30,774 bases of DNA from a virus, in the IMG/VR virus record IMGVR_UViG_3300044729_000435, positions 1-30,774 of that record. One strand, 5' to 3'. The notes beneath the pieces are model-generated. The model saw only the letters and a program-made list of their open reading frames with translations. It was not told the DNA's origin and made no database searches. Each line of letters begins with the position of its first letter. Position 1 is the first letter of the stretch. The translations under genes were made by a program, and so were the position numbers. This document shows positions 2,117 to 18,398 of the stretch, piece by piece.

Positions 2117-3967
2117 TTATCGTGGGTTTACAAATCCTTGATTGGGCATATCAACAGGTCGCTTCGCTACGTTTGTAGGATTGGTCTCAAGTACCACGCC
2201 CTCCTTCTTTGCCTTGTTTACACTCACCTCTGCGTTGGGGTTGCCTACATCGGGAGTTACGCCTTCGCCCTTTGCCAAGTACGTCTTGCGCATCCAAAAG
2301 TGATGGCACCTTGCACCGCCCTTGTATAACCATATTGAATAGGTTGCTGCTCCCTCTACACCAAAACCTGCGTTGACGGCTTGACCATCCATACGCTCAA
2401 TATCTTCTTTGCGGTACACCTTGCCTGCTGATACCATCTTCTTGCAGAACTCACGGCTATTGGTCTTTGTAGTTTCGGGAGCGTAAGCATAACGAACCTT
2501 GTACCTCTTGCCTTCTTCAGTTACTCCGTCTTGGCTGCTCTTGGCATTTGGGAATGCGCTGCCTGTTGATGCAAAAGCATACTTGCTCAATGCCTGCTCG
2601 GCATCGTAGTCAACGGGTTTTTCATCTACAAGCTCCCATTCATCTTCGTTGATGACCTCGCCTAACTGCTCTAACTCGGTATAAACTGCTTCAAGTTGTT
2701 GCTCTGATGCCTCAATAGGTACGCAGTTAGGTACTTTACGACCATTCTTTATCTTCATACCAATCATCTCATAGCCATCATAGCAAGGCTTTGTTAGGTC
2801 TACTGATGATAATTTCACGCCTGTCTCCTCCTCACGGGTCTCCAAATCCATAGGCGTAACTACGTCTTCGGTGAACTCCAAAGGCTGAAGGGTCTTAAAG
2901 TATAGGTTTAGGCTGATGTCGTTGTATGACAAGATTTGGTCTATGCCGTCAATGATAATCTCCTGCTTAGGTCGGATTACAAGGTTATCCAAAAGCGTAG
3001 AAGCGGTCTTCAGCTCCTCTGCGTTGTTGCCGAGTCCTGAATTGTCTTTAATACCCAATAGCATAGGGCTTACGATGCGATGCGACACCATTATTTTCTG
3101 CGTGGCTTCAGCACTCAAGAATTGGTACTGCTCCGCAGCATCCGATAACTGCACAGGGTCAACCGTTGCAGCAAGGTCTTTGTTATCGTTAAACGCAAGG
3201 ATAAACTTGCCTGAGTTTGAACTACCGCTAAACTTCGTTGCAATCTGTTGCTCTATGCTCCTGCGTTCTTCTTCACTCGGTACTCCGTTGTTGAAGTTGA
3301 TAAGCATTGAAGGCGCAAGGCCGTTCTGAATGTTGTTGATGTGGTAGTTGGCAATTTCCTCCTCAAGTTCTGCGTAGGGCAAGCCACCTTGATAGTCCAC
3401 AGGTGAGTAGTAGTAGAATCCTGCTCGGTATGGCTTGATGTACAGAATCTCTAATCCCTCTTTGCTTGTGCCAAACGCAGGGATGCGTACCGCAGTCTCT
3501 CTCCTGCCTTTTACGTCTGTCCAATCCTTTGCGTAGTAGTACGCTTCAATCTCACCATCTTCGTTGCACCTTGCGGCTCTCAGCGTCTCTACGGGGATGT
3601 GTTGCACCTCTACGATGGTGTTGTGGTCTTGGGAGTACACAACCTGCATACTGCATTGCCCCATCATCACATAATCGGCAACCACCTTCTGCAAGCAGGC
3701 TTTCGTGAACAAGCCACGCATCGCTGCGTACTCGCTCGGCTTCTTGGCAGAGTCCGTTGCATCCAAGCCCTTACCAAAGGTCATATCCATCAAAGAGTTG
3801 AGGATAGCGTTGTTGGTGGGTGAGCCGTTGTAGCGGTCAATTAGATACCCGAAGTAGTCGTTGTTATCTCCGTATTCAACGTAGTCCTTCCCTTGAACCT
3901 CTTTAACAACAGGTGTGGTATAGGAACTGAAGTTCACAACGTGGACTTTAGATGATGATGTACTCAT
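2117..3967 (-). CDS. Portal protein with Cys/His-containing C-terminal extension
   Basis: The 616-residue protein has a portal core over about residues 25-400. It includes DNDYFGYLIDRYNGSPTNNA near the N-terminus, a GLAPSMLINFNNG segment near residue 220, and SHRIVSPMLLGIKDNSGLGN near residue 300, the helix and loop expected for the tunnel-lining region. Residues from about 490 form an extra domain with FCKKMVSAGKVYRKEDIERM, VNAGFG, TYSIWLYKGGARCHHFW. From memory, similar domains occur in head-assembly proteins of Bacteroidota phages. The portal forms the dodecameric ring through which DNA is packaged. Unusually, it lies about 11 kb after terminase and after the capsid gene. The start overlaps the upstream 111-residue gene by 20 bases. 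Confidence 0.85.
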   Translation of the reverse strand: MSTSSSKVHVVNFSSYTTPVVKEVQGKDYVEYGDNNDYFGYLIDRYNGSPTNNAILNSLMDMTFGKGLDATDSAKKPSEYAAMRGLFTKACLQKVVADYVMMGQCSMQVVYSQDHNTIVEVQHIPVETLRAARCNEDGEIEAYYYAKDWTDVKGRRETAVRIPAFGTSKEGLEILYIKPYRAGFYYYSPVDYQGGLPYAELEEEIANYHINNIQNGLAPSMLINFNNGVPSEEERRSIEQQIATKFSGSSNSGKFILAFNDNKDLAATVDPVQLSDAAEQYQFLSAEATQKIMVSHRIVSPMLLGIKDNSGLGNNAEELKTASTLLDNLVIRPKQEIIIDGIDQILSYNDISLNLYFKTLQPLEFTEDVVTPMDLETREEETGVKLSSVDLTKPCYDGYEMIGMKIKNGRKVPNCVPIEASEQQLEAVYTELEQLGEVINEDEWELVDEKPVDYDAEQALSKYAFASTGSAFPNAKSSQDGVTEEGKRYKVRYAYAPETTKTNSREFCKKMVSAGKVYRKEDIERMDGQAVNAGFGVEGAATYSIWLYKGGARCHHFWMRKTYLAKGEGVTPDVGNPNAEVSVNKAKKEGVVLETNPTNVAKRPVDMPNQGFVNPR

Positions 3968-4283
3968 TGTTGTAGCTTGTTTCTTCGGTGTAGACGTTTT
4001 GGTTCACCGTAAATTTCTCGTAATCTGTTTGCGAAGTTACGAATACCCTATCGCGATATATTAGATTTCCCGATGCAAATACCTTTAAGCCATAGAATCT
4101 ATTGTTGACAAGGCTAAACGTGCCTGTAAGGGTCATAAAACCATTAGCAGAGGCAGCAGTAACCGCAGGTGTTGCGGTGGTGTTTGTTGATTCATCAATC
4201 AAGGCAATCGTTACGCTCGCAGGGAATGTGCGCGGTATGATTACTATTGCTTGTGGTGAGGCTGATACTTGAAGGATATGCAT
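3948..4283 (-). CDS. Small structural-like protein, 111 aa
   Basis: I do not recognise a named family. The protein is beta-rich, with an Ala/Thr-rich central part (TATPAVTAASANGFMTLTG) and a C-terminus rich in Tyr and Asn. It has no signal peptide. It sits between the 124-residue gene and the portal and overlaps the portal start by 20 bases. The leader AAAAGGTTATTT is found 8 to 19 bases before the ATG and is shared with the chaperone gene. A minor head or tail role is likely from context only. Confidence 0.65.
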   Translation of the reverse strand: MHILQVSASPQAIVIIPRTFPASVTIALIDESTNTTATPAVTAASANGFMTLTGTFSLVNNRFYGLKVFASGNLIYRDRVFVTSQTDYEKFTVNQNVYTEETSYNNEYIII

Positions 4284-4290
4284 CTTAAAT

Positions 4291-4302
4291 AAATAACCTT
4301 TT
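4291..4302 (-). promoter_or_regulatory. Late leader motif AAAAGGTTATTT
   Basis: On the minus strand AAAAGGTTATTT lies just upstream of the ATG at 4283. The same 12-mer is found before the chaperone gene at 14881-14892, and related forms precede the ATGs at 18939 and 1546. It may be a translation-initiation element. A weak Shine-Dalgarno (AAAAGG) is another reading. Confidence 0.4.
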
Positions 4303-4325
4303 AGTTTCGATTTGTTTGAAAATAG

Positions 4326-4343
4326 AAAAGGGGCTTACGCCCC
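4326..4343 (-). terminator. Hairpin terminator after the 124-aa gene
   Basis: On the minus strand GGGGC-GTAA-GCCCC is followed by TTTTCTATTTT. It lies 40 bases past the stop of the 124-residue gene and before the 111-residue gene. The stem is GC-only and the tract after it is T-rich, as in intrinsic terminators. Confidence 0.75.
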
Positions 4344-4382
4344 CCTCTTAATCTATCTGCACTATTTTGTTTAATAGAACAA

Positions 4383-4757
4383 TCAAAGTAAAAGCTTTGC
4401 TTCTCTTATCATATCTTCAATTGTGCCCTCTTGGTCGATGGCGTTCAATCTGTTGTACTTTTTGCCCTCATCATAGTCATTAATATTAAGTCCAATCTTT
4501 TTAAAGTCGGCAGCCAATATAGAGTACTCATTTTTAAGAGACCCCGTAAGTGTTAATAGTGTTTCTCCTGAGCTCACAACAGGTTTAACTGCAGATTGCA
4601 ACTTTGTGTAATCATTGTTAAACTTATTGTATGCCTTCTCAACCTCATCAGTCATAGTAGAAAGTTTTTGAACTGTTGCAAACTCAACCTTCATTGATTC
4701 TGCGTCGCGTACTTCCTCGCCAATCTTGGCGATTTTAGAAAATATTTGCTTGCTCAT
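4383..4757 (-). CDS. Coiled-coil hypothetical protein, 124 aa
   Basis: The whole protein is predicted helical by eye, with heptad-like hydrophobic spacing through residues 15-95 (for example VQKLSTMTDEVEKAYNKF). There is no signal peptide or membrane segment. It is flanked by hairpin terminators on both sides, so it may form its own short transcript or be reached by read-through from the tail tube gene. Small coiled-coil proteins near the tail tube gene can be minor virion or assembly proteins, but I do not recognise this one. Confidence 0.65.
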   Translation of the reverse strand: MSKQIFSKIAKIGEEVRDAESMKVEFATVQKLSTMTDEVEKAYNKFNNDYTKLQSAVKPVVSSGETLLTLTGSLKNEYSILAADFKKIGLNINDYDEGKKYNRLNAIDQEGTIEDMIREAKLLL

Positions 4758-4770
4758 TTTATTTGTAAAT

Positions 4771-4790
4771 ATAAGGGGGCTTTCGCCCCC
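4771..4790 (-). terminator. Hairpin terminator after the tail tube gene
   Basis: On the minus strand GGGGGC-GAAA-GCCCCC, a 6-bp GC stem with a GNRA loop, followed by TTATATTTAC. It lies 10 bases beyond the tail tube stop. The T tract is short, so termination may be partial. Confidence 0.7.
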
Positions 4791-4799
4791 CTAATTCAT

Positions 4800-5348
4800 T
4801 TACGAGTTAGAACCCACTACAATCGTTTCAACTGCACCTGCAAGTCCTGCGAATGGATTGGCAACGGTAGCACCTGCGATGAAGTTGGCAGGAAGTTGCT
4901 CCTGTCCCTCCATTGTCAAGGTATAGCCTGATAGGTCACCCATAGCAGCCCCTGTTACAATCGTTCCACCTGTTACTTCGGCTCCGTAGTTCAGACCCAT
5001 CATAAAGGCGTTGCCGTTGTAGTCTTGCACCACCACATAAGGGCGGCCATAAGCAAGCAGCTTCAATTCTTTGTTGTCCTCCTTTGTCAGTTTGGTCAAC
5101 GTAAGATTCAAAGTCTGCGTGAAGAAGGTAGTACCATTCTCACGGTTTGAGTTAAAGGTCTGCTCAAAAGATGAGTTACCTTTTACAAGATATTGGTAAG
5201 CAGAGAAAGTACCACTGATGTTGGTAATTTCATCGTTGGTGAGGGTAACGGTACCCAAGTCACCGAAGTCTACAAAGTACACGGCATAAATGCCACCTAC
5301 TACGTCTTTACAGGGTACTGCCCTGCCTTTAGTTAAATCACACGCCAT
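4800..5348 (-). CDS. Major tail tube protein (putative)
   Basis: The 182-residue protein starts MACDLTKGRAVPCKDVVGG and is rich in beta-strand-forming segments, with FSAYQYLVKGNSSFEQTF near residue 50 and QTLNLTLTKLTKEDNKELK near residue 78. Proteins with this N-terminus and length are, as I know them, structural proteins of Bacteroidota siphophages and fit a tail tube fold (beta-barrel hexamer stacking around the tape measure). It follows the capsid gene and is bracketed by terminators, as expected for a highly expressed virion protein. A head decoration role is the main alternative. Confidence 0.65.
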   Translation of the reverse strand: MACDLTKGRAVPCKDVVGGIYAVYFVDFGDLGTVTLTNDEITNISGTFSAYQYLVKGNSSFEQTFNSNRENGTTFFTQTLNLTLTKLTKEDNKELKLLAYGRPYVVVQDYNGNAFMMGLNYGAEVTGGTIVTGAAMGDLSGYTLTMEGQEQLPANFIAGATVANPFAGLAGAVETIVVGSNS

Positions 5349-5371
5349 TGTTTCTTTGTTTTATTAGAATT

Positions 5372-5408
5372 AAAAAAGAGGGCGAGGACATAGCCCAAGC
5401 CCCCTCTT
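5372..5408 (-). terminator. Hairpin terminator after the major capsid gene
   Basis: On the minus strand AAGAGGG pairs with CCCTCTT across a longer loop, and the right arm runs into a T tract (CCCTCTTTTTT). It starts 19 bases past the capsid stop and ends 24 bases before the tail tube ATG. The loop is about 19 nt and itself contains GC-rich stretches. Confidence 0.65.
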
Positions 5409-5426
5409 GATTTACATTAACTCGTA

Positions 5427-6353
5427 TTAAGAGTAAAGAACTACGTCTGCTCCGATGCCGTACTGAACTCCTGCGAAGAAGCGTAGGATTACGCGGATGT
5501 TGTCTGAGCCGTCAAGGTCAGCCATATCAAGAACACGAACCTCGTTACGCTCATCAAGAAGCCCTGTTCCGAAGAACAAGTTGCTTGTTTGACCTGCGAC
5601 CATCTTGTTAGAAGGAAGACCGTTACACATTCCGATGCGGATGCCGTCAAAGAACATATCGCCCTGTCCGTACCACATTGTGCCTTTATTGTCAACACCA
5701 TTTGCTCCAAGACCTGAAGTTCCGAATCCACCAAGCGCACGGACATAAGCCTTTGCTACGTTTTGTGGAACGTAGATGGTCAAGTCCTCCTTGCCGTAAA
5801 GGGCAGAAGGGATAGCGTCTACAACCTTACCAAGCTCAGTGATTACGTTTGCAGCAGTCACGGTGGTAGCAGTTACGTCAATAACGTCTGAGTCAGCAGT
5901 CATCAATGAAAGGAAGCCCGAGAACTCACCTGCTGAAGCAGCGTTCCCGTTCCAAATGTTCTGCTCAATCTTCTGTGAAGTCTTTGCAGCAACGTGAGCG
6001 ATAAGGAAGTCAGCGAAAGAAGCAGGGATGCTATCGTAAGCAGAGAAGCCCATTTGACCACCAATCCAAGATGAGTAGTAGTCCTTCTTGCAAAGCTGCA
6101 AGTTTACTTGAAAAGGCTCAACGGCAAGAACGCGGTCGGTCAAAGTCAAGGTAGAAGTTGCATCGAAATCACAAGTACCATCTTTTACGATGTCGTTGGT
6201 GTTCACCTTCTGCAAGGTGGTTTTGTAGTTTACGTTTGGAAGAATCTCAATGAGACCTTTGTCAAGCGTGTTTGCGCTCAAAAGAGCAGCAGAGATGTAC
6301 TTCGAGGCAAATTGACCTGCGTACGAAGTAGTGATTGAAGTAGTTGTAGCCAT
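5427..6353 (-). CDS. Major capsid protein
   Basis: The 308-residue protein has the length and layout of HK97-fold capsid proteins of Bacteroidota phages. It has an N-terminal region with SYAGQFASKYISAALLSANT, a central helical part (FLIAHVAAKTSQKIEQNIWN near residue 120), and a C-terminal domain ending in IRVILRFFAGVQYGIGADVV. There is no long N-terminal delta domain, consistent with a separate scaffold. It follows the acidic scaffold-like gene by 10 bases and is itself followed by a terminator, which suits the most abundant virion protein. Confidence 0.85.
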   Translation of the reverse strand: MATTTSITTSYAGQFASKYISAALLSANTLDKGLIEILPNVNYKTTLQKVNTNDIVKDGTCDFDATSTLTLTDRVLAVEPFQVNLQLCKKDYYSSWIGGQMGFSAYDSIPASFADFLIAHVAAKTSQKIEQNIWNGNAASAGEFSGFLSLMTADSDVIDVTATTVTAANVITELGKVVDAIPSALYGKEDLTIYVPQNVAKAYVRALGGFGTSGLGANGVDNKGTMWYGQGDMFFDGIRIGMCNGLPSNKMVAGQTSNLFFGTGLLDERNEVRVLDMADLDGSDNIRVILRFFAGVQYGIGADVVLYS

Positions 6354-8064: not shown

Positions 8065-9684
8065 TTATCCAAAGGTTGCGGTGCGTATGCGCCTGCGGTC
8101 AAGTTGCGTTCCTGAAATAACCTCGCCACTCACGACATACGCCTTCATAGGCTTTTGGAATTGTGAGGCGATGCTTTCCATTAAGATGTTGTTACCGCTT
8201 TTTGATACGATGTTAAAGTTAGCAGGTTGTGATGGTACTGATGCGCCCGACTCGTAGTTTGAAGAACCGCCTGCCGATGCAGATTGAAACTGCTGACTAC
8301 GTAGTAGCGATACTTGACTTCCCACAAATGCTGCGGCTGCGCCTGCTGCAATAAATGGATAGGCAGGTACAAAAGGTGTGATTGGTGATTTTTGTGCTGA
8401 TGTATAAGCATTCACGACACTCTCTACTCCCTGCACTACCGCTTGAGCAATAGATAGTTTCTTTTGGATGTTAAACGCTTTCTCTGCATTCTTCTCATCG
8501 TTAGCATACCTCGCCTCGTAAAAGGCAGATATTGCATCAATGGCTTGACCCGTTGTTTTTACTGCATCACTTAACGCTTGCAAATTAAATCCCCTGCGAC
8601 CCTCAGCTAACTCCCGATTCTTACCATCGTACTCAACATCTAATTGATACTTCTCATCAAGAAGAGATTGGTATTGTGCATTCTCGGTTTGGCCTGCTGC
8701 TTGCGCTGCCGCAATCTGTTTATTTAAGAAGTCAATACGAATCTCGTATGCCCTTTCATATCTTTTAAATTCAAGTTCAGCAAGTTCTCGCTCGTTTTGT
8801 ACTCGGAATTTAAATATGCGTACCTCTAAATCAGTTTGAGTTGTATTGTTGGCAACACCCGTTTCTGCTTCTAACGCCTTAGCCTCGTTAATTTGTTTCT
8901 GCAATTCTAAACGCTCACGCTCAAGGCCACGTTGGTTGGACAGGTATTCTGATGTCTGACTAAGAATGCGCTCTTGTATATCAGTCTGCTCTGTGAGTGC
9001 TTGTGCAAGCGCAACTTGGTTTTCAATGTTATCCAAACGATTGACTTCAGCCGCTGCTGCTGCAATTTTTGCCTGAACCATTTTATCCTCTTCGGCTAAT
9101 TGCTCTACAAGAATATCATTAAGTAAATTATTAGCATTGATGCGTTCATCAATACTTGATAACTCATCATCACGCAACTGCCGTTGCTCTTCCGCAAGGA
9201 TTTGATATTCAAATTGTAGCCTGATGCGCTCGACTTCTGCAAGTTTAGATTGATTTTGCAGTTCTACTAATTCTTTCGCTTGGGCGGTAACACCCTTGAA
9301 GGCATCAGCTAAACTTCCACCGCCACCACTAAAGTAATCAATCAGATTGCTGATTAAGATTTGGGCGGAGAATAGCCCTGTGTTCAGTACATCAACTACT
9401 TTCTGATTGCCTGTGAATGCTTCACTTGCCGCATCAGTTAGTTTGGTTATAAGACCAAGAGCGGTGATGTTTTTAATTAAATCCCGAACGCTCTTACCCG
9501 TTTCTTTAACTTCTTCTTTTACACCTTTAACGGCAGTTTCAGCCTGACCAAATGATTGCTTGGCCTCTGTTCCAACTTTGTCAATCGACTTGTTAAGTTG
9601 ATTGATGTTTGAAATCAAATCCTTAACGGCAGCGTCAAACTGCGAGGAGTCACCATCAATGCGTATCGTTTCTACTACTGCCAT
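8065..9684 (-). CDS. Tail tape measure protein (short)
   Basis: The 539-residue protein starts with a coiled region (DSSQFDAAVKDLISNINQLN) and a short hydrophobic segment (ITALGLITKL). It continues as long Gln/Glu/Leu-rich helices through about residue 390. Near the C-terminus it has a hydrophobic Ala-rich segment (FIAAGAAAAFVGSQVSLLRS). This layout is typical of tape measures, which set tail length and may help DNA entry. Using the usual 1.5 angstroms per residue, the tail would be roughly 80 nm. Unusually, it precedes the head protease and capsid genes. Confidence 0.75.
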   Translation of the reverse strand: MAVVETIRIDGDSSQFDAAVKDLISNINQLNKSIDKVGTEAKQSFGQAETAVKGVKEEVKETGKSVRDLIKNITALGLITKLTDAASEAFTGNQKVVDVLNTGLFSAQILISNLIDYFSGGGGSLADAFKGVTAQAKELVELQNQSKLAEVERIRLQFEYQILAEEQRQLRDDELSSIDERINANNLLNDILVEQLAEEDKMVQAKIAAAAAEVNRLDNIENQVALAQALTEQTDIQERILSQTSEYLSNQRGLERERLELQKQINEAKALEAETGVANNTTQTDLEVRIFKFRVQNERELAELEFKRYERAYEIRIDFLNKQIAAAQAAGQTENAQYQSLLDEKYQLDVEYDGKNRELAEGRRGFNLQALSDAVKTTGQAIDAISAFYEARYANDEKNAEKAFNIQKKLSIAQAVVQGVESVVNAYTSAQKSPITPFVPAYPFIAAGAAAAFVGSQVSLLRSQQFQSASAGGSSNYESGASVPSQPANFNIVSKSGNNILMESIASQFQKPMKAYVVSGEVISGTQLDRRRIRTATFG

Positions 9685-9821
9685 TATCTGCGTTTTAAGA
9701 ACTCATCCCAAGTCTTGGGAATTGCGTACTTGCCTTTGGCAATATCAATCGCCTCTGACTCCTTGCGCCATTCCTCTAACTGCAAGAGTTCTATCAAATA
9801 ACTTAAATATCCTGTCTTCAT
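9684..9821 (-). CDS. Small protein before the tape measure, 45 aa
   Basis: The ATG at 9821 overlaps the TGA of the 707-residue tail gene (ATGA), and the stop shares one base with the tape measure ATG. The peptide (MKTGYLSYLIELLQLEEWRK at its start) is helical and charged. Coupling on both sides makes a real gene likely. Its position directly before the tape measure suggests a tail assembly role, but I recognise no family. Confidence 0.7.
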   Translation of the reverse strand: MKTGYLSYLIELLQLEEWRKESEAIDIAKGKYAIPKTWDEFLKRR

Positions 9822-11941
9822 ACTACGTTGAGGAGTTCAAATGTTGCTCGGCCTGTGGTTAGGTTCAACTGCACGTTGTTGATGACGTACTTGTTGTTGT
9901 TCCAAATAATCGTGTCGTTCATCTCAAGCGTTGCCATCTTACCCAATGGCAAGACCGCTTCAACCGCGTAAATCCTACGGGTGCGGTTGTATAGGTCGGT
10001 GATGTAGTCAACCCACTCCGTATTGTAGAGGCTGCGGTTTATGGTTTCCAAATGATAGGGGTCGTTGTCAACGCCAAAACAAATAGAATGCGATGCGCCT
10101 GCACTATCGTAGCGGTTTGAGGTATTGGCATACCAAGCAACAGTAATCTCTTCGCTTGTGGTGTTATCTGCGTTTACAAATGCAACAGGATTTGGAGTTA
10201 GGTTGTAGTCATCAAAGTAGCCGTAGAATAAGATAGGCGCCCCCAAGTATGGATTGAACGTACCATCCTCATTTGCTTCACTTGTGATGCTTTTGTACAC
10301 GAGTACGTTGGTAAGTGCGCTTGTATCTTGGTCTGTCAGCCTTTCAAATAAAGGGCATTCAAACGGCACCTCAACAAGGAACTGCTCGCCATCAAATGTA
10401 AAGAAGGTGCGCAGGTTGCCAAAGCCTTCGCCATACAACCGCTCATATTGAAAGCCGAGTATCTGCTCTGTCTCTTGATACTTAAACTCAATCTCTCGGT
10501 ATAGCTCAGGGCGGTTTACATCATACTCGGTGATGTCAATGTAGTCTTGCAAATCGTTTGTTGCTCCTGATGCGTACCAATCATCCAACGGCTGAAGCAA
10601 GAAGCTTGTGCCGCTTGGCACTATCACCATATTGTACATCCTAATAATGCCTGCCAAGAAGTCCTTGACTTTTATTTCGGGCATTATGTCTGAAACAACA
10701 AGGCTGAAGGTGTAGCTGACCGATGCGGTTTGGTCTACTGAGAAACTAACAGAAGCCGTATCACTATCAATGCCCGAATAGTCCGTGCATTGGTAGGTCA
10801 TTGATTCTCGTGTCTGCGAACGTATAAACAACTGAACGGTATCACCTGCGGTAAACGACAAGGCAGCCATATTTGTAGTTACTGAAGACGCAGGGTGTGC
10901 ATTAACCAATGCCGTAAAATCAAGTACTCCATTACGAAAAATCGCAAGCTCGTAATCCTTGCTTACATTTTGCATTGTAATCTGCAAGTCATATTGCTTG
11001 CTATCTACAACTGTCCAAGTGTCGGTAGTCAAATTAAACTGCGAGCCGCTACCTGTATTGCGATTCATATTTATTAACTGATAAGCAATATCATTGCCTC
11101 CTGCAAATAGATACCCTTCAAACCTGTGTAGCCATAGCGACAAGTCAATAAACGGAGTAGCCGCCAAGAAGGAACCCGTGAACGTGATGCCGTACTTTGC
11201 TTCTATCGCATCAAGGATAGCCGTCACCTTTAGGGCAGGCTTTAGCTCATAGTAGTGAATGCCGTGTTCTTCGTTAGCATTGTGGAAGGCAATGTTGGTG
11301 TCATCGTGATTGGCGTTGTTTGAATCATAAATCCAATTCTTGACAGGACTGCAAAGCGGATAAAACAACGGAGCATAGGTGTCGGTAGTCAATCGTGCCA
11401 ATATCGCAGTATCAGAATACTGATGGTCGTATGCGCTGAAGTTAAGGTCATACAAATAGTCCTCGCCAAACAAGTCAGAAAGCGTTACCAAATCCCCATA
11501 GAACGTAATCGTGTACGCATAAGGCTCGGTGCCTTTTAGCTGCACACCCTCAACCTCGATAACGCCTGAGCGGAATGGGATAGAGTTTATTTCAATCTGC
11601 GCAGGCTGCCTTAACCTTCCGTCAAACGTATTGGCTACGCTCGTGGTTGTAGCACCTGCGTTCCATACCGTATTAAAAGTATTCCAAGTGATGCCGATGG
11701 CATTCCAAACGGGATTACCTGCGGTCTCGGTAGTGATAACGGAACTTGTGATATTGGCATTGTAGTAGTGCTGAAGTATCTCGTTGTTGCGTGGGCTTGC
11801 AGGAATGGTGAATCCCTGCGTGAAGTCCGTGAACACCTTTGAGATGTCCTGCACATTCTGCACCGAGAGGTTGATGCTTATCTCCTCATCATCAAACAGG
11901 TCAAGCCGAAAGTCGTTGACGTAAATATCTACCTTGTTCAT
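9818..11941 (-). CDS. Large tail protein, hub/tip-like, 707 aa
   Basis: The protein starts MNKVDIYVNDFRLDLFDDEE and soon has NVQDISKVFTDFTQGFTIPA. This N-terminus is one I associate with tail proteins of Bacteroidota phages that follow a smaller tail protein. The middle contains beta-rich carbohydrate-binding-like stretches, and the C-terminal part resembles a baseplate-hub domain in layout (long YEREIEFKYQETEQILGFQY-like segments near residue 485). A distal tail or hub role is inferred from size and position. The ATG overlaps the upstream TGA (ATGA). Confidence 0.65.
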   Translation of the reverse strand: MNKVDIYVNDFRLDLFDDEEISINLSVQNVQDISKVFTDFTQGFTIPASPRNNEILQHYYNANITSSVITTETAGNPVWNAIGITWNTFNTVWNAGATTTSVANTFDGRLRQPAQIEINSIPFRSGVIEVEGVQLKGTEPYAYTITFYGDLVTLSDLFGEDYLYDLNFSAYDHQYSDTAILARLTTDTYAPLFYPLCSPVKNWIYDSNNANHDDTNIAFHNANEEHGIHYYELKPALKVTAILDAIEAKYGITFTGSFLAATPFIDLSLWLHRFEGYLFAGGNDIAYQLINMNRNTGSGSQFNLTTDTWTVVDSKQYDLQITMQNVSKDYELAIFRNGVLDFTALVNAHPASSVTTNMAALSFTAGDTVQLFIRSQTRESMTYQCTDYSGIDSDTASVSFSVDQTASVSYTFSLVVSDIMPEIKVKDFLAGIIRMYNMVIVPSGTSFLLQPLDDWYASGATNDLQDYIDITEYDVNRPELYREIEFKYQETEQILGFQYERLYGEGFGNLRTFFTFDGEQFLVEVPFECPLFERLTDQDTSALTNVLVYKSITSEANEDGTFNPYLGAPILFYGYFDDYNLTPNPVAFVNADNTTSEEITVAWYANTSNRYDSAGASHSICFGVDNDPYHLETINRSLYNTEWVDYITDLYNRTRRIYAVEAVLPLGKMATLEMNDTIIWNNNKYVINNVQLNLTTGRATFELLNVV

Positions 11942-13164
11942 CGTACCAAGCTGCGCTCATCAAAGCCAAAATCAAAGGACATTGTGTAATTGATAAGTTT
12001 TGTGTTCACGCTCTTTTGGTACTCCATAGTTCCACGCTGCGGTACTACGCTCACCCAATTGCTATTGGTATAGACCGCGACATACTCGCTCATCAGAATG
12101 TCCTCAATAGTCTCATCGTAATCTTGGTCAACGAACCCTGTGTTTAGGGTTAGTGTGTTGCGAGAGTTGACGTTGAAGGATTGGTACTTGCCTACCTCCA
12201 ATGAAGGGGTGGTAAAGCCATCGTTGTAGATGCTCTTTTGGTAAGAGTCCTGCGTGAAGTTACCGCGCTCATCGCTGCGCTTGAAGAACGTGATAAAGTC
12301 AGCAACGCCAAAGCGGTTAATGAACGCCACCTGCACAGGAGTGTATTTAGATTCGCAAAGAACATAGTACCTCACCGTTGCAAGGGTGGTATTGCCTGCG
12401 TTCTTTAGAATCACATCGTAGTACTGCCCTACGCCACCATCGGGTTGACTGCTTGGCTTTATCGCATTATCTAAAAAAGAATTGTTCTCAAGGTTGGCAG
12501 GGCCTACGCCTGCGTAAATCACAAGGTTTTGGCTATTGTTTGTTGTTCTGTCAGGTGGTGCGGTGCTTATGGCACTTATTTGAAAATCATCAGAATCGCC
12601 ACTCTGCCAAGTGATGACAATTTTGGCAAGAGCATTTGTGCTGCTATTGTTAATCGCAAGGGATTCATAGTTCCCTACAAGCACCTGCCTATCTCTGCTC
12701 GTTGCAAGCACGGGTTGTGATACCGCAACGGGGGCTATGTTATCACGCGTTGCCCATCCATCGGTAGCAAGAAACGCCAAAGAGCTGCCTGTTGCCCATA
12801 CCGCTGATTCAGGGGCGGCTCCGTTATTTGAATAGACCCAATCGCCAATAGGTGAAACCCACAACGCCTCACCTTGCGGACTCTGCGTGTAGCCTATGTC
12901 GTTCCATACGCTGAAGTCGTGGTAGAACTCCGAGCGTACAAGGTCGCTCACCTCAAAGTTGATGACCTCGTTGATAGAATAATTCTTACTTAAAGAATAG
13001 TTTGCAGTAGCAGGGGGCGAGGCCTTTAGGCCATTGTAAATCTTTAACTGAAGAGTCATTGAATCAAGTTGGTCATTTGCCAAAGCGTTGTTCTTGCCCG
13101 TGACAAATAAAGGGCTGCGCCCCATTGAAAGGCTGCTTGGGGTAGATGCAGTAGGTGTACTCAT
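11938..13164 (-). CDS. Tail protein, 408 aa
   Basis: A beta-rich protein without signal peptide. It begins with a Thr/Ser-rich stretch (MSTPTASTPSSLSMGRSPLF), then DQLDSMTLQLKIYNG, and ends with a domain containing LINYTMSFDFGFDERSLVR. Proteins of this length pairing with the following 707-residue protein are frequent in Bacteroidota siphophages and probably form the distal tail. Its ATG overlaps the TGA of the preceding gene in ATGA form, and its own TGA overlaps the next ATG. The exact tail position is unknown. Confidence 0.6.
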   Translation of the reverse strand: MSTPTASTPSSLSMGRSPLFVTGKNNALANDQLDSMTLQLKIYNGLKASPPATANYSLSKNYSINEVINFEVSDLVRSEFYHDFSVWNDIGYTQSPQGEALWVSPIGDWVYSNNGAAPESAVWATGSSLAFLATDGWATRDNIAPVAVSQPVLATSRDRQVLVGNYESLAINNSSTNALAKIVITWQSGDSDDFQISAISTAPPDRTTNNSQNLVIYAGVGPANLENNSFLDNAIKPSSQPDGGVGQYYDVILKNAGNTTLATVRYYVLCESKYTPVQVAFINRFGVADFITFFKRSDERGNFTQDSYQKSIYNDGFTTPSLEVGKYQSFNVNSRNTLTLNTGFVDQDYDETIEDILMSEYVAVYTNSNWVSVVPQRGTMEYQKSVNTKLINYTMSFDFGFDERSLVR

Positions 13165-13679
13165 TTTGTGGTAAATGCTTTGAAGTCTTGTTCTGTTAGT
13201 TTGAACGCCTCTACTAATTCAGTAGGTAGATTTTTGAACGCTATATTAAAAGGGGTGCTGAAGAATTTAGTTGCAGGGATTCCTTTGTTGTAGATGCTAC
13301 GGGCTAATGCGAACTGAAGGCTCTTGCGTTTTACAAACTGCCCCTTCTTATTTCGTACGCCATCCAATCCCTTCTTGATAGCCCATTGACTAAACGCACT
13401 TACGGGTGGCATCTTGTTGGTGTACTTGTAGGGAGACCCCCCTGCGCTTGAATAGGTGCTCTTTGCGCCCCTTACTCCCTTGTCTTGGTACTCACCATAC
13501 TCATCCATTGAGAACGTCAGGGAGAACTTATTATTTGAATAGTAGATATTATATTTTAGAGACTTGTATAGATTGCCCGATACGTTTTGCTTCTTGCGAG
13601 AGAGATTAGTCCTCGCCTGTTGAATGACATATTTGCCAAACTTAACAAGCACCGAAGCAAGCAAATCCTCCCGTGCCAT
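13161..13679 (-). CDS. Head-tail connector / tail completion protein (HK97 gp10-like)
   Basis: The 172-residue protein is basic. It contains SGNLYKSLKYNIYYSNNKFS and then YGEYQDKGVRGAKSTYS, the EYxxKGVxG signature of phage virion morphogenesis proteins of the gp10 kind. It also has SAFSQWAIKKGLDGVRNKKG near residue 95. Such proteins complete the tail end that joins the head. It sits in the expected place between the tail terminator candidate and the tail proteins, with ATGA coupling to the next gene. Confidence 0.7.
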   Translation of the reverse strand: MAREDLLASVLVKFGKYVIQQARTNLSRKKQNVSGNLYKSLKYNIYYSNNKFSLTFSMDEYGEYQDKGVRGAKSTYSSAGGSPYKYTNKMPPVSAFSQWAIKKGLDGVRNKKGQFVKRKSLQFALARSIYNKGIPATKFFSTPFNIAFKNLPTELVEAFKLTEQDFKAFTTK

Positions 13680-13680
13680 T

Positions 13681-14148
13681 TTAGCAGATGCTTATCTCGG
13701 TGTTTGCAAGCAGCACATCAAAGGTTGCAGTCCACCCTGCAAGCAGGTTCTCAAACCGCTCGCTAAAGGGAACGCAAGTCGCGGTGCCATCCAACTGATA
13801 AAGGTCGGTGTACAGAGTACCCCTGCGGAGTTCTGTGATGACATCGTTGATTACTGCGAGCTGCGTGTTCAAGATGTTCTGCTCGTTGCTAACTCCATAG
13901 AACGGCTCTGCCTGCAAGCGAGGATTCTCTTTGGTCTCATCCACTAAATCCATACAAACAATGCTCACGTTCATACGGACTATCTGTCCCTCGAATGTTG
14001 CTTGGTTGATGATGATGTGCGACAAAGGGAAGATGGTCTGCTTGTTTAGGTCTATGTCGAATATATCGCCTGTCGTTACCACGCTGACTTGGCTATTGGC
14101 TTCAAGGGTGTCTTTTAGCTTGGTGGTGATGTCGTAAAACTGCCTCAT
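13681..14148 (-). CDS. Tail terminator-like protein, 155 aa
   Basis: An alpha/beta-looking protein with an N-terminal helix (MRQFYDITTKLKDTLEANSQ), a VSVVTTGDIFDIDLNKQTIF strand segment and SHIIINQATFEG. It occupies the place of tail terminators or neck proteins, just before the gp10-like gene. Similar proteins follow the chaperone-like gene in other Bacteroidota phages as I recall. Its ATG overlaps the TGA of the -1 frame of the chaperone gene (ATGA), which supports that frame as coding. Confidence 0.6.
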   Translation of the reverse strand: MRQFYDITTKLKDTLEANSQVSVVTTGDIFDIDLNKQTIFPLSHIIINQATFEGQIVRMNVSIVCMDLVDETKENPRLQAEPFYGVSNEQNILNTQLAVINDVITELRRGTLYTDLYQLDGTATCVPFSERFENLLAGWTATFDVLLANTEISIC

Positions 14149-14875
14149 TTCTTTAGTTTTTCTAATTGCTTTCGTTCAATGTCATTTCGCTCTTTGTCAA
14201 ACGTGAGAAGGGTGAGGCATTGGTGAACGCCCAATCTTCCCACATCCTCAAACTTTGTGACATCTCCTTTAGCAAGGTGGTAGAATGAGGAGTACCATCC
14301 CCACTTCCTTCCGAATTGTGACTCTGTGGAGTACTCATTTTCTGCTTCTCCAAAGAGTTCATTGTAGCGGTCAACAAGTCGTTTCCTAAACGATAAAAAA
14401 AAAGCGTTGCGCCTAATACAACATCCATCGGAGCCTGCTTCATTAAGTCGCTATACTTCTCTGCCGATTCGTATGGCTCAATGTCGTATCGCTTGCCTGC
14501 TCGTTGAGTGATGGGTCGGTACAACACCGCCATCGTATTGTGCAGGTTCAGCGTGTCTGCCATATAGTTGTCAAGGTCAACGTACTCGCCAAAGCTAATG
14601 TCCTCAATGCTTGGAATGAATCCAAATGTCTTACCATCAAGATTGAACTCTTGCTTGAGGGATGGCTTGGTGCCAAACATACCATTGAGTCGGTTGACTA
14701 CCCCTGCGAGGCTTTTGAACTTTACGTTGGGCAACTTGGCAAGAGGCACTCCGCAGAATATCTCAAGCATCTTGTGGGTCAAGAACTCCTCATCGCCATC
14801 CAAGCGCACGAAGCGTTGGTATTGGTCAAGCGTTATCTCCGACAGGTCGGTGGGTACAATTACCTTTAGTTCCAT
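14145..14875 (-). CDS. Tail assembly chaperone-like fusion made by -1 frameshift (putative)
   Basis: The first 160 residues are read in the zero frame. On the T9 tract at 14395-14403 a -1 shift would continue for 83 residues to a TGA at 14145, giving 243 residues. The -1 part contains RKWGWYSSFYHLAKGD and GVHQCLTLLTFDKER, which look like a true folded domain and resemble C-terminal domains I know from Bacteroidota phage proteins at this locus. Its TGA overlaps the next ATG as ATGA, the coupling used elsewhere here. The zero frame stops at 14162. Siphophage tail chaperones (lambda gpG/gpGT) use the same device. A missing T in the assembly (T10) would join the frames equally well. Confidence 0.75.
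14162..14875 (-). CDS. Zero-frame product of the chaperone-like gene, 237 aa
   Basis: The shared N-terminal 160 residues (IVPTDLSEITLDQYQRFVRL near the start) end in GATLFF at the T9 tract. The unshifted ribosome would add 77 residues with a polar, Ser/Thr/Gln-rich tail (MSTPQSHNSEGSGDGTPHS). Compared with the -1 frame this tail looks less like a folded domain, but it stays open to within 17 bases of the next gene. If frameshifting is programmed, this would be the gpG-like short form. The ATG at 14875 follows the leader AAAAGGTTATTT and the TerL stop. Confidence 0.55.
   Translation of the reverse strand: MELKVIVPTDLSEITLDQYQRFVRLDGDEEFLTHKMLEIFCGVPLAKLPNVKFKSLAGVVNRLNGMFGTKPSLKQEFNLDGKTFGFIPSIEDISFGEYVDLDNYMADTLNLHNTMAVLYRPITQRAGKRYDIEPYESAEKYSDLMKQAPMDVVLGATLFFYRLGNDLLTATMNSLEKQKMSTPQSHNSEGSGDGTPHSTTLLKEMSQSLRMWEDWAFTNASPFSRLTKSEMTLNESN
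14395..14403 (-). other. Slippery T9 tract, probable -1 frameshift site
   Basis: On the coding strand the codons read CTT TTT TTT TAT, so a T_TTT_TTT heptamer of the X_XXY_YYZ type is present. Both P- and A-site tRNAs could re-pair after a -1 slip. The -1 frame is then open for 83 codons. I did not identify a clear downstream pseudoknot by eye. Confidence 0.7.
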
Positions 14876-14880
14876 TATTA

Positions 14881-14892
14881 AAATAACCTTTT
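14881..14892 (-). promoter_or_regulatory. Late leader motif AAAAGGTTATTT
   Basis: Identical on the minus strand to the motif before the gene at 4283, and placed 5 bases before the ATG at 14875, between the TerL stop and the chaperone-like gene. It probably aids translation initiation at genes that are not coupled to an upstream stop. Confidence 0.4.
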
Positions 14893-14896
14893 AATT

Positions 14897-16063
14897 TTAG
14901 CGTATGGCATACCTTCCAAAGTTAGGTCTGCTGAGTTTGTTGTAGGTCGCATATCTGAGTGCATCAATGGCGTGGTTGAATGCGTCTATGGGTTTGTTCA
15001 AGAGGTTGCCGTTCTTGTCCTCCACCCATTTGTAGTTCTGAAGTTCCTTGATTAGGTTGCTGCTTCGTGGGGTTACAAATAGCTTGTGCCGCTTCAGCAC
15101 GTCAATGCCCACTATGACGCTATCTGCTCCCTTCTGCGTGGGTTTCACGTTCCATCCCATACGATGCAACTCCTCAATAGATTTGGGTTCAGCAGAGTCA
15201 GCATATATTTCTGCCCTTCGGTCAAGCCCAAGTGACGCAAGCACGTTGCTGATGTCGGGGTTGGTCATACCCGTGCGGTAAATCAACTCATCCACATACA
15301 GATTGTCTCCCGACTTGTAAACTGCCACAAGTGCCGTTGGGTCGTTAGTGTACCCGAAGTCCATCCCGTGACATAGGAGCGTGGCATCCGTTGGTATCTC
15401 TCCTTGCCCGTATTGGAAGATGGTGGCTCTACTCATCCCACGTTCTCCTAATCCGTAGATTCTCCAATAGTCGCTATCGGTATCACGCAAGCGTTCTATT
15501 TCATTTCGGATGCTGCTATCAAGGAACGGGTTGTCAAGGTAGGTGGTCTGATAAAACTCGCAGTCATCACGGGTTACCACCTTATCGTATATCCAATGGA
15601 ATGCATCCGAAGGGTTGTAGTCAAGGATTGCCCTGCCTTCGGTACGCAGGATGAGCTGCTGCCAATCCTCGTAGGTTAGCTCGTTAGCCTCGTTGATGTA
15701 TAGCAAGTCCCTCTTGCGACCCCGTATCTTTTGCGGTTGGTCAAGGCTTATGAACTCCACAAGGTTGCCATTCAGATAATACTCGTGGCTTGACCTGTTA
15801 TGATAGCTCTCGTTGTACAAGTCGTGGTTGCGCAGTATTTCAAAGAAGTCCCGCATCACAGAAGCCCGAAGCGAAGGGAACGTCTTGCGGCAGATGGTGA
15901 TGGTCTTGTTTGTCTCCCGTGTGCTATAATAGAAAATCACCCATAGCAGGATGTTGTAAGTCTTTCCGCTACGAGTGCCGCCCTGCTCAACGACTATCTT
16001 CTTGTCGCTGCGCTTTAGGTGGTTATATACTTTATTGGTCTGAATCTTCTCCAAGCACTTCAA
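14897..16063 (-). CDS. terL: Terminase large subunit
   Basis: The 388-residue protein is a PBSX-type terminase. Walker A is GGTRSGKT near residue 28, and Walker B with catalytic Glu lies in DLLYINEANEL near residue 120. The nuclease domain starts at MDFGYTNDPTALV near residue 240 and contains YADSAEPKSIEEL near residue 290 and DAFNHAIDALRYA near residue 362, giving the conserved acidic residues. It drives DNA packaging at the portal and cuts the genome. No ATG is available near the 5' end, so a TTG at 16063 is the likely start, overlapping TerS by 32 bases. The length is near the usual 400-430. Confidence 0.93.
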   Translation of the reverse strand: MKCLEKIQTNKVYNHLKRSDKKIVVEQGGTRSGKTYNILLWVIFYYSTRETNKTITICRKTFPSLRASVMRDFFEILRNHDLYNESYHNRSSHEYYLNGNLVEFISLDQPQKIRGRKRDLLYINEANELTYEDWQQLILRTEGRAILDYNPSDAFHWIYDKVVTRDDCEFYQTTYLDNPFLDSSIRNEIERLRDTDSDYWRIYGLGERGMSRATIFQYGQGEIPTDATLLCHGMDFGYTNDPTALVAVYKSGDNLYVDELIYRTGMTNPDISNVLASLGLDRRAEIYADSAEPKSIEELHRMGWNVKPTQKGADSVIVGIDVLKRHKLFVTPRSSNLIKELQNYKWVEDKNGNLLNKPIDAFNHAIDALRYATYNKLSRPNFGRYAIR

Positions 16064-16379
16064 TTTGAAATAGCTTGCCCGAAGATACGTCTACCTCTTG
16101 GCGTTCCACGTACCCACGCTTCTTGCCTTTGGTCTTTAGAAAAAAGATAGTAGCGGTTGAGTTGCCCTCCTTTATCTGCTTGTGCAGTTGGCTCTCCGCA
16201 AAGTCAATGGCTACGTCTGATAGTTCTTCGACTGCTGCTTTGTATTCCTTATCCTCTTGCATCCATCGGTAATGTGTTTGCCTTGCGATGTCAACGCTCT
16301 TGCAGGCAGACGTAACTACTCCTAACGATTTCTCTAACGCATCAAGCATTGCCTTTTTATGGATGTCACTACGTGTCAT
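16032..16379 (-). CDS. terS: Terminase small subunit (putative)
   Basis: The 115-residue protein has an N-terminal helix-turn-helix (MLDALEKSLGVVTSACKSVD then IARQTHYRWMQEDKEYKAAV), the pattern of HTH-type small terminase subunits that recognise the packaging site. A helical middle (FAESQLHKQIKEGNSTATIF) would form the oligomer, and the acidic C-terminus may contact TerL. It lies directly before TerL with an overlapping stop. Its ATG at 16379 overlaps the TGA of the UDP-galactopyranose mutase gene. Confidence 0.8.
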   Translation of the reverse strand: MTRSDIHKKAMLDALEKSLGVVTSACKSVDIARQTHYRWMQEDKEYKAAVEELSDVAIDFAESQLHKQIKEGNSTATIFFLKTKGKKRGYVERQEVDVSSGKLFQIEVLGEDSDQ

Positions 16380-17464
16380 TTTAACTTATTGTATAATTGC
16401 AATGCACTATGAATTGCTTGGTCCATATTAAAATATTTATATTCAGCCAACCTTCCTATAAAATAAATATTTTTCTTTTCTAATTCTTTTGCTGCTTTTT
16501 GGTATTTTGAATAAATCTCTTTGTTCTTACTTGTAGGCATTGGATAATACTCCTCACCATTATTGGTGCTATATTCTTTTGCTATTATACTATAATCAGA
16601 TTCGGTGCCATAGAATTTTTTGTAATCTATTTTTCTCGTGTATGGATATTTAAGCGAAGGATAGTTAACCACTGCAGAAGGTTGATAATTCTTTACTTCG
16701 TGTGTTTCATAGTCAAATTCTAATGACCTGTATTCTAATTTGCCAAACCTATCTGAAAAATAAGAATCTATTTTGCCTGTAAAAAAGAGCCTATTAGATT
16801 TGTGGTGTTTATTATCGTATTCTTCGTTGAGTCGTACTTCAATGTTTTTGTGGTCTAACATATTTTTTACAAATTCAGTATAACCATTTTTTGGTAATGC
16901 CTCATATTTGTCTGAAAAGTATTTGTCGTTAAAGTTTTCCCTAACAGGTATTCGTTCTAAAACTGATGCATCTAACTCTATTGGGTCTACATCCCATTGT
17001 TTCTTTGTATAGTTTTCAAACATTAATTCGTATAATTCCTTACCCACACGAGATAAAGCGGCATCTTTAGAATTTTTTACATCTCCCTTTATTTGATTAT
17101 TATAGAGCCATTCCTTCATTTCGTCTTCATTCTTTATGTTTAAATTAAATAACACATTTACAGTGGTAATATTTACAGGAACAGGAACAAATTTATCGTT
17201 AACAAATGATAAGACACGATGTTCATAAGGTAACCATTCAGAGAATCTATTGACAAACTCCCAAACGTCTTCGTTAGATGTGTGAAAGATATGTGCGCCA
17301 TACTTACTTAATCTTATATTAGTTTTTTCATCAATGTAATCATAAACATTGCCCCCTATATGGTTTCTCTTATCTATAACCAACACATTGTGTCCATCAT
17401 CAGCTAATTTTCTCGCTAAAGTGGCGCCTGATAATCCTGCACCTACAACAATGTTATTCGTCAT
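16376..17464 (-). CDS. glf: UDP-galactopyranose mutase
   Basis: The 362-residue flavoenzyme interconverts UDP-galactopyranose and UDP-galactofuranose. The FAD-binding N-terminus is VVGAGLSGATLARKLADDGH followed by VIDKRNHIGGNVYDY. The family motifs YGAHIFHTSNEDVWEF, NYTKKQWDVDP and FIGRLAEYKYFNMDQAIHSA are present and the length is normal, so it looks intact. The gene is very AT-rich (15 of 60 G+C at 16441-16500 by hand count) compared with terL (28 of 60 at 15001-15060), suggesting acquisition from another genome. Its TGA overlaps the terS ATG. It would provide Galf donors for the glycosyltransferases nearby, or alter host surface glycans. Confidence 0.92.
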   Translation of the reverse strand: MTNNIVVGAGLSGATLARKLADDGHNVLVIDKRNHIGGNVYDYIDEKTNIRLSKYGAHIFHTSNEDVWEFVNRFSEWLPYEHRVLSFVNDKFVPVPVNITTVNVLFNLNIKNEDEMKEWLYNNQIKGDVKNSKDAALSRVGKELYELMFENYTKKQWDVDPIELDASVLERIPVRENFNDKYFSDKYEALPKNGYTEFVKNMLDHKNIEVRLNEEYDNKHHKSNRLFFTGKIDSYFSDRFGKLEYRSLEFDYETHEVKNYQPSAVVNYPSLKYPYTRKIDYKKFYGTESDYSIIAKEYSTNNGEEYYPMPTSKNKEIYSKYQKAAKELEKKNIYFIGRLAEYKYFNMDQAIHSALQLYNKLK

Positions 17465-18398
17465 TAGATTCTCTTTTTTTAATTTGTTCTATGGTTTTTT
17501 TAATTTCAGATACTACGTTATTGTTTAATATTAAATCAGTATCCCACTCCTTTGGCTTTTTAAGTTTATGTTTATGTTGTAAAAATGGTTCTTTTTGAAT
17601 TGTACTTGATTTTACCATATAGCTGACTTTTCTTGTGTAGATATTTGGATACATACTTTCGGCATACTCACCTCTTTTATTATCCTTCAGCATAGCATTA
17701 TAGATTTTACGATTCCCATCCATTGATGTTTTTTTACCCGTCTTGCCATATCGCAAGGCATTTCTAACAACACAACTTGGTTTTTTATTTATGCCATTAT
17801 AGATGCTCATAAGTATGTCATCTTCTGTTGAATTCTCAAATTGAAAATTCTTGTCTACACGATGAACAAAAAAACTATATGGGAATCCTGCAGTAATTTT
17901 TATTGTCTCTAAACTTGGATATGCTGCCATCTCAAAACCAACTGCCCCTGTATTTGAATTTTCAGCTATAAAAAACAATAATTTTATTAAATCAAAAAAT
18001 GCTTGTGGTTTATTTTTCTTTACACTAATATTTTTTTTATTTATTTGATAAAACAATTGAGTAATGTTATCATCTAAATGCAGAGCATAATCATAATTGT
18101 TTTTAATAGCATATTGATTTATGGTCTCTCTTGTTTCAGCACCAAGATTAGTTTTGGTTTCTCTTTGTCTTAATACAAACTCATTGTGCAAAGCTTCACT
18201 TGTCTCTATAGTAACTATATCTTTGATTTTTCTAAAATCCTTTGCGGCATTGGGATTGTTTGTTGCGATGATAAAATCAATCCCTTCTTTTTTTAGCCTT
18301 TCTCTAACAGGTGGGATAAGAAATCTTCGTAATGTAATGTTATCAATATATGGTCTACCACCAAGTATTGCAACGAGTTTTTTACTTTTTAAAGACAT
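17454..18398 (-). CDS. Glycosyltransferase-like protein (GT-A type, possibly TAGT-like)
   Basis: The 314-residue protein has no close relative I can name. Near residue 100 it has NYDYALHLDDNITQLFY, an acidic cluster like the DxD motif of GT-A enzymes, followed near residue 190 by STEDDILMSIYNG and then SMDGNRKIYN. This order (DDN, ED, GNR) reminds me of TET-associated glycosyltransferases of phages, but no TET/JBP oxygenase is present here. The base composition is even lower in G+C than glf (11 of 60 at 18001-18060), and both genes overlap by 11 bases, so they probably moved together. Substrate is unknown: sugar transfer to DNA, virion protein or cell surface is possible. Confidence 0.5.
   Translation of the reverse strand: MSLKSKKLVAILGGRPYIDNITLRRFLIPPVRERLKKEGIDFIIATNNPNAAKDFRKIKDIVTIETSEALHNEFVLRQRETKTNLGAETRETINQYAIKNNYDYALHLDDNITQLFYQINKKNISVKKNKPQAFFDLIKLLFFIAENSNTGAVGFEMAAYPSLETIKITAGFPYSFFVHRVDKNFQFENSTEDDILMSIYNGINKKPSCVVRNALRYGKTGKKTSMDGNRKIYNAMLKDNKRGEYAESMYPNIYTRKVSYMVKSSTIQKEPFLQHKHKLKKPKEWDTDLILNNNVVSEIKKTIEQIKKRESNDE

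Follow-up and report, generated by a model that had tools for sequence, protein, structure and literature searches.

A conserved run of at least nine Ts joins two reading frames of a terminase-adjacent phage gene, a candidate case of transcriptional slippage

Overview

We propose, with a probability of roughly 0.55, that slippage of RNA polymerase within a tract of nine or more Ts yields a short and a long form of one phage protein, and that the two forms act most likely as tail chaperones. The slip mechanism, the product ratio and the function are what we infer here. On the comparative evidence, the gene is a real -1 frameshift gene that is common to a large group of phages of Flavobacteria-like bacteria, and it is accepted as such mainly because of the conservation of its arrangement, which we regard as the decisive evidence.

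The frameshift gene and its two frames

The whole stretch of DNA analyzed here (the window) is a viral record of 30,774 bases. The zero-frame ORF runs from 14875 to 14162 on the minus strand (237 codons) and contains a T9 tract at 14395-14403 (minus strand; plus-strand letters AAAAAAAAA), which is the sole homopolymer of nine or more bases within the window. Codons 158-161 of the zero frame read CTT TTT TTT TAT. Beyond the tract, the zero frame continues for 77 codons, and the -1 frame is open for 83 codons (14396 to 14148) and stops at a TGA (14147-14145) that is overlapped by the ATG of the next gene (ATGA). The coordinates given in a preliminary description of the region all hold. When the amino acids of the other frame were held fixed and synonymous codons were sampled from the usage of the window, the chance of an open frame this long was 0.006 for the zero frame and 0.003 for the -1 frame. 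The predicted long product is a fusion of 243 aa, in which the peptide GATLFFLSFR spans the junction. The features of the gene are as follows:

14162..14875, minus strand: zero-frame ORF, short product of 237 aa; matches phrog_32199 (E=6.5e-18, residues 3-180)
14395..14403, minus strand: T9 slip tract; found in 39 viral contigs, with a run of 9-11 in 119/119 representatives
14145..14402, minus strand: -1 extension (FFLSFRKRL...KWGWY...KLKK, TGA); helical domain at the C-terminus of the long product
14336..14395, minus strand: doubly coded stretch; end of the zero-frame helix (YRLGNDLLTATMNSLEKQ..) and first part of the -1 domain
14386..14388, minus strand: +1-frame TAG two codons beyond the run; ends the products of transcripts with one T lost or two gained

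Conservation of the two-frame arrangement

In the context seen in the window (CGC-T9-ATCGTTTAGG), the T9 tract was found in 39 viral contigs, and a T8 or T10 version of this context was found in none. A search with the -1 frame peptide, as advised in the preliminary description, resulted in 80 relatives, all of which have T9 in the same phase and the same arrangement. So that the -1 frame would not be selected for, viral contigs and bacterial genomes were also searched with the N-terminal domain alone, and the same arrangement was observed in essentially all intact loci, the exceptions being one locus truncated 5' of the run (L103) and one with an early frame break (L128). Both searches combined gave 247 loci with the gene (206 distinct, 116 at 90% identity); these 116 and three prophage-like loci from bacterial genomes make up the 119 representatives (≤90% identical) analyzed below. 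The run and the -1 domain are present in each of the 119 representatives, at N-domain identities down to about 21-30%, which bears out the earlier expectation of a -1 frameshift gene with a short and a long product. The two findings that had been named as speaking against it, a T10 at this site and homologs keeping the zero frame alone, were not encountered: T10 of this context is absent, and the homologs retain both frames.

The representatives come from environmental contigs, cultured Nonlabens phages, and prophages in Flavobacteriaceae genomes, including an isolate of Flagellimonas onchidii, and the -1 domain motif F..KWGWY..I..L..GD....F..I..L is kept across the family. Both cultured Nonlabens phages carry the gene, annotated as two separate hypothetical CDSs; in Nonlabens phage P12024L, gp40 and gp41 are the two annotated parts. 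In Nonlabens phage P12024S (3676-3792, minus strand), the end of the -1-frame CDS gp39 is overlapped by gp40, an antisense CDS that is probably spurious. One viral record of 47,685 bases contains the N-domain gene twice (8841-9323 and 38004-38486), which may reflect a duplication, the joining of sequences in assembly, or the presence of two related phages. A Bacteroidota-wide search of 395 genomes gave a single match, which had already been found. The candidate G866 was a false match and was rejected.

Dual coding and predicted structures

Synonymous variation in the -1 frame, measured as entropy, was compared with the variation expected from the codon use of the N-domain. The observed/expected ratio was 0.33 for -1 codons 3-12 and 0.42 for codons 3-20; in the N-domain of the same sequences, 10-codon windows had a mean ratio of 0.94 and a minimum of 0.84. 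The -1-frame ratio climbs later and, past the point where the zero frame usually stops, is about 0.9 (around codons 57-66). At -1 column 9, where the residue is Leu, Ile, Val or Thr, 112 of 113 sequences have T as the third base (expected 31.5), and a zero-frame Leu is thereby kept. Judged by these substitution patterns, the first ~20 codons past the run are strongly dual coded, and the remaining zero-frame tail appears at most mildly constrained, so that the suggestion of dual coding over the whole region is strongly supported for the former stretch only. By the same measure, selection also acts on the short form, as the dual coding beside the slip shows. A second synonymous dip (ratio about 0.45-0.55) was seen at -1 codons 41-50 (window 14163-14300, minus strand), just before the usual zero-frame stop.

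The zero-frame protein (with 101 homologs) and the -1 domain were modeled apart by AlphaFold. The zero-frame model is confident to about residue 180, with pLDDT below 50 for residues 182-193 and 215-237. Its predicted layout comprises an N-terminal domain (residues 1 to ~150), a helix (150-180) that crosses the slip point at 160, and a tail predicted to be disordered; the helix end of the short form is GATLFFYRLGNDLL. This confident helix to residue 180, followed by a low-confidence tail, agrees with the dual coding near the slip. The -1 domain is predicted to be all alpha (pLDDT 89.5).

Run length and the mechanism of slippage

Over the 119 representatives, the run length is 9 (78 sequences), 10 (40) or 11 (1) and never falls below nine. 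The Ts outside the in-frame heptamer, counted as 5'+3', are split as 1+1 (71), 1+2 (27), 2+1 (11) and 2+0 (5), more rarely as 3+0 (2), 0+2 (2) and 4+0 (1), and they sum to at least two in every representative. The N-domain tree requires at least 19 configuration changes, and 11 length changes were counted on it. The T10 and T11 variants are always re-phased, preserving the -1 step; where the 3' T is lost, extra Ts are present 5' (TTT TTT TTT CTG), and where the 5' T is lost (GGT, GCT), two Ts are present 3' (TTG). An independent-pairs test of this 5'/3' compensation was not significant, with too few pairs, and for this reason the argument for a minimum run rests on the absence of shorter runs. 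Some of the flanking Ts may be kept for the amino acids that they encode.

Ribosomal slippage requires just an in-frame U_UUU_UUU, that is, seven bases, and this heptamer is found in every sequence, since any run of nine contains one. No excess of structure was detected in the 80 nt downstream (mean z +0.28 vs. -0.82 for a control stretch), an upstream SD-like motif was present in just 9 of 116 representatives, and no conserved downstream hairpin was found across the family, although the window has a small one (CGTTT..AAACG). The +1 frame runs into a stop no more than two codons beyond the run in all 116 representatives tested, and in 106 of them the stop is exactly two codons away; this stop would end most other slippage products, and it partly follows from the codon needs of the other two frames. 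In bacteria, slippage on runs of nine A or T is known to produce mRNAs with extra nucleotides, and the RNA:DNA hybrid measures 9-10 bp (PMC5009743); slippage amounts to 15-30% for Shigella mxiA, mxiE and spa33 (PMC4256274). Given that the run is kept at nine or more while sliding relative to the codons, and that no stimulator was found, transcriptional slippage is favored, and RNA polymerase is probably the main route, with a ribosomal share possible. The preliminary description invoked a lambda-type slip; the -1 step stands, but the conserved homopolymer of at least nine Ts, longer than an in-frame heptamer, points to RNA polymerase rather than to the ribosome as its main source.

According to the proposed mechanism, one gene would give rise to two proteins sharing an N-terminus when RNA polymerase slips at the run. 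Transcripts with nine Us would encode the short form (the N-domain and the zero-frame helix end), those with one extra U would encode the long form, which gains the conserved 83-codon helical domain from the -1 frame, and the remaining slippage products would reach a stop within about two codons. Ribosomes could slip -1 on U_UUU_UUU in the same run, adding to the long form. By analogy with gpG/gpGT and gpE/E+E', the tape measure would be coated by many copies of the short form, and a few copies of the long form would recruit the tube protein.

The alternative that survives best, although we consider it rather doubtful, is that the slip is purely ribosomal, a programmed -1 frameshift on U_UUU_UUU like those of lambda G/GT and P2 E/E+E'. 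The extra Ts would then be a by-product of the hydrophobic residues that precede and the aromatic residues that follow Phe-Phe. It would fit the presence of the heptamer in frame in every sequence, the annotated P2 -1 site (TTTTTTG), and the ribosomal slippage of known tail chaperones, some of which have no stimulator (PMC5009743). However, it would not predict a run that never drops below nine over 19 configuration changes, with a T lost on one side offset on the other, and neither the downstream fold (80 nt) nor the SD-like motif (9/116) provided the stimulators sought.

Genomic neighborhood and the tail chaperone question

The genes around the frameshift gene that bear on its function are as follows:

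14897..16063, minus strand: terminase large subunit, directly upstream; PF04466 (E=2.7e-23), PF17288 (E=2.2e-20)
13681..14148, minus strand: next gene, 155 aa; phrog_30964, unknown function
8065..9684, minus strand: candidate tape-measure gene (539 aa), four genes downstream; matches phrog_21537 'virion structural protein' (E=6.5e-12)

The 155-aa gene looks like a tail terminator by its position and appearance, and the gene at 8065..9684 is a tape-measure candidate by its length and sequence, which agrees with the earlier remark that the frameshift gene lies several genes before the tape measure. A tube candidate is located at 4800-5348, away from the frameshift gene. The frameshift gene follows the terminase and is not placed between the major tail protein and the tape measure. 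The order terminase, frameshift gene, 155-163 aa gene and 172-181 aa gene was also found in the Flagellimonas prophage and two other genomes, and in the Nonlabens phages by position and size; a third genome has extra intervening genes.

The window has an unusual order (2117-6353 and 8065-16063, minus strand), in that the portal, the tube candidate and the capsid come after the tape-measure candidate and the chaperone-like gene is next to the terminase. Adjoining the small-terminase-like gene, the stretch 16376-18398 (minus strand) contains a UDP-galactopyranose mutase (PF03275, E=6.3e-67) and a TET-associated glycosyltransferase-like protein (PF20691, E=2.4e-6), and these sugar genes are followed by ParB_N, HNH, methyltransferase and glycosyltransferase-like genes. 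The region is possibly a DNA or surface sugar modification cassette.

Profile searches gave weak matches to tail proteins. The phrog_166 'tail protein' family was matched by 29 of 101 N-domains (best 2.4e-4), and P2 gpE matches the same family (4e-7); Pfam Phage_TAC_7 was matched by 4 of 101 members (best 0.043). In fold comparisons, a single weak match (E=0.069) was annotated as 'tail assembly chaperone', and the other fold neighbors are unnamed phage proteins. An hhalign comparison with an alignment of 13 P2 E/Mu gp41 proteins, whose gpE relatives were gathered with an approximate gpE-like query and entered the alignment only as retrieved database records, was not significant (E 0.06-0.17, probability <1%). 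A PDB fold search with both models and an NCBIfam search gave zero matches, and an HMM search of PDB sequences gave nothing meaningful. One weak fold relative, AGN89393 of Flavobacterium phage 6H, was examined and set aside: it lacks T9, and after T_TTT_TTC its -1 frame meets a stop immediately. The phage 6H gene is located at 10352-10927 on the minus strand (BFVD E=1.1e-4), and its -1 frame reopens and stays open through an unannotated gap up to the next gene.

Tail chaperones usually consist of a short N-domain and a small helical -1 domain. As the gene lies in the tail/neck block and would give two forms with a shared N-domain, we consider it likely that it works like a tail assembly chaperone pair of the G/GT or E/E+E' type. 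Its product is not filed as a member of a known chaperone family because the matches are weak and the gene lies outside the usual tube/tape-measure position. The chaperone identity suggested in the preliminary description is backed by the conserved -1 joining of overlapping frames (119 of 119 representatives) and by weak family matches, and not by gene position.

The two forms could also be unrelated to chaperones and represent another structural pair, such as a neck or head-tail connector protein whose minor form is extended at the C-terminus (like T7 10A/10B). The location of the gene between the terminase and two small tail terminator-/completion-like genes, several genes from the tape-measure candidate, would suit such a pair, as would the lack of significance of the profile matches to chaperones. 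Nevertheless, gpE-type families are matched repeatedly, even if weakly, and the layout of the gene is the usual one of chaperones, which makes the connector reading unlikely. Sequencing error, a pseudogene or phase variation of the T run at the DNA level is very improbable: long homopolymers are mutable and error-prone, but T9 recurs in 39 independent contigs with T8 or T10 of that context in none, the same arrangement is found in isolates and bacterial genomes, and the T10/T11 variants re-phase to keep the -1 step.

Implications

The frameshift of tail chaperones is a standard example of ribosomal recoding, and, to our knowledge, few recoding cases are known in these hosts. We tentatively suggest that a radiation of Bacteroidota phages and prophages might set its tail-chaperone ratio by polymerase rather than ribosomal slippage, with ~20 codons being useful in both frames. 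With a minimum homopolymer close to the length of the RNA:DNA hybrid, transcription may be the step at which a phage structural ratio is set. If true, this would provide a role for phrog_32199, a family of unknown function, and would imply that one gene has been annotated as two in many environmental and prophage sequences. The family also represents a natural library of T9-T11 runs for relating slippage to run length. In the literature searched, in which subscription journals were thinly covered, we found neither this gene described nor transcriptional slippage reported for a conserved phage tail gene; the tape measure gene of a single Acinetobacter prophage was apparently made by transcriptional slippage, reported without a family analysis (PMC6095929).

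Comparison with known systems

Like lambda gpG/gpGT and other siphophage chaperones, the gene combines a -1 shift, a short and a C-terminally extended form, overlapping frames and a location in the structural block. Lambda-type chaperones, however, lie between the tube and the tape measure, whereas the gene of the window is next to the terminase and has a run of at least nine Ts, and they have no detectable sequence or solved-fold match to it. P2 gpE/E+E' and Mu gp41 (Phage_TAC_7) likewise have a T-rich slip site (T_TTT_TTG in P2) and two forms, but gpE is about half the length of the N-domain of the gene and differs in gene position, and the run of the window gene is at least nine Ts. With regard to the slip itself, Shigella mxiE/spa13/spa33, Thermus dnaX and Citrobacter tssM are comparable in having an A/T run of about 9-11, one added nucleotide and no need for a ribosomal stimulator; these genes are bacterial or plasmid-borne, whereas the gene described here is a phage gene. 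Among the closest counterparts are homologs, namely phrog_32199 and P12024L gp40 + gp41, which have T9 in the same place; the former family holds the short form, and the latter are annotated as two unrelated proteins.
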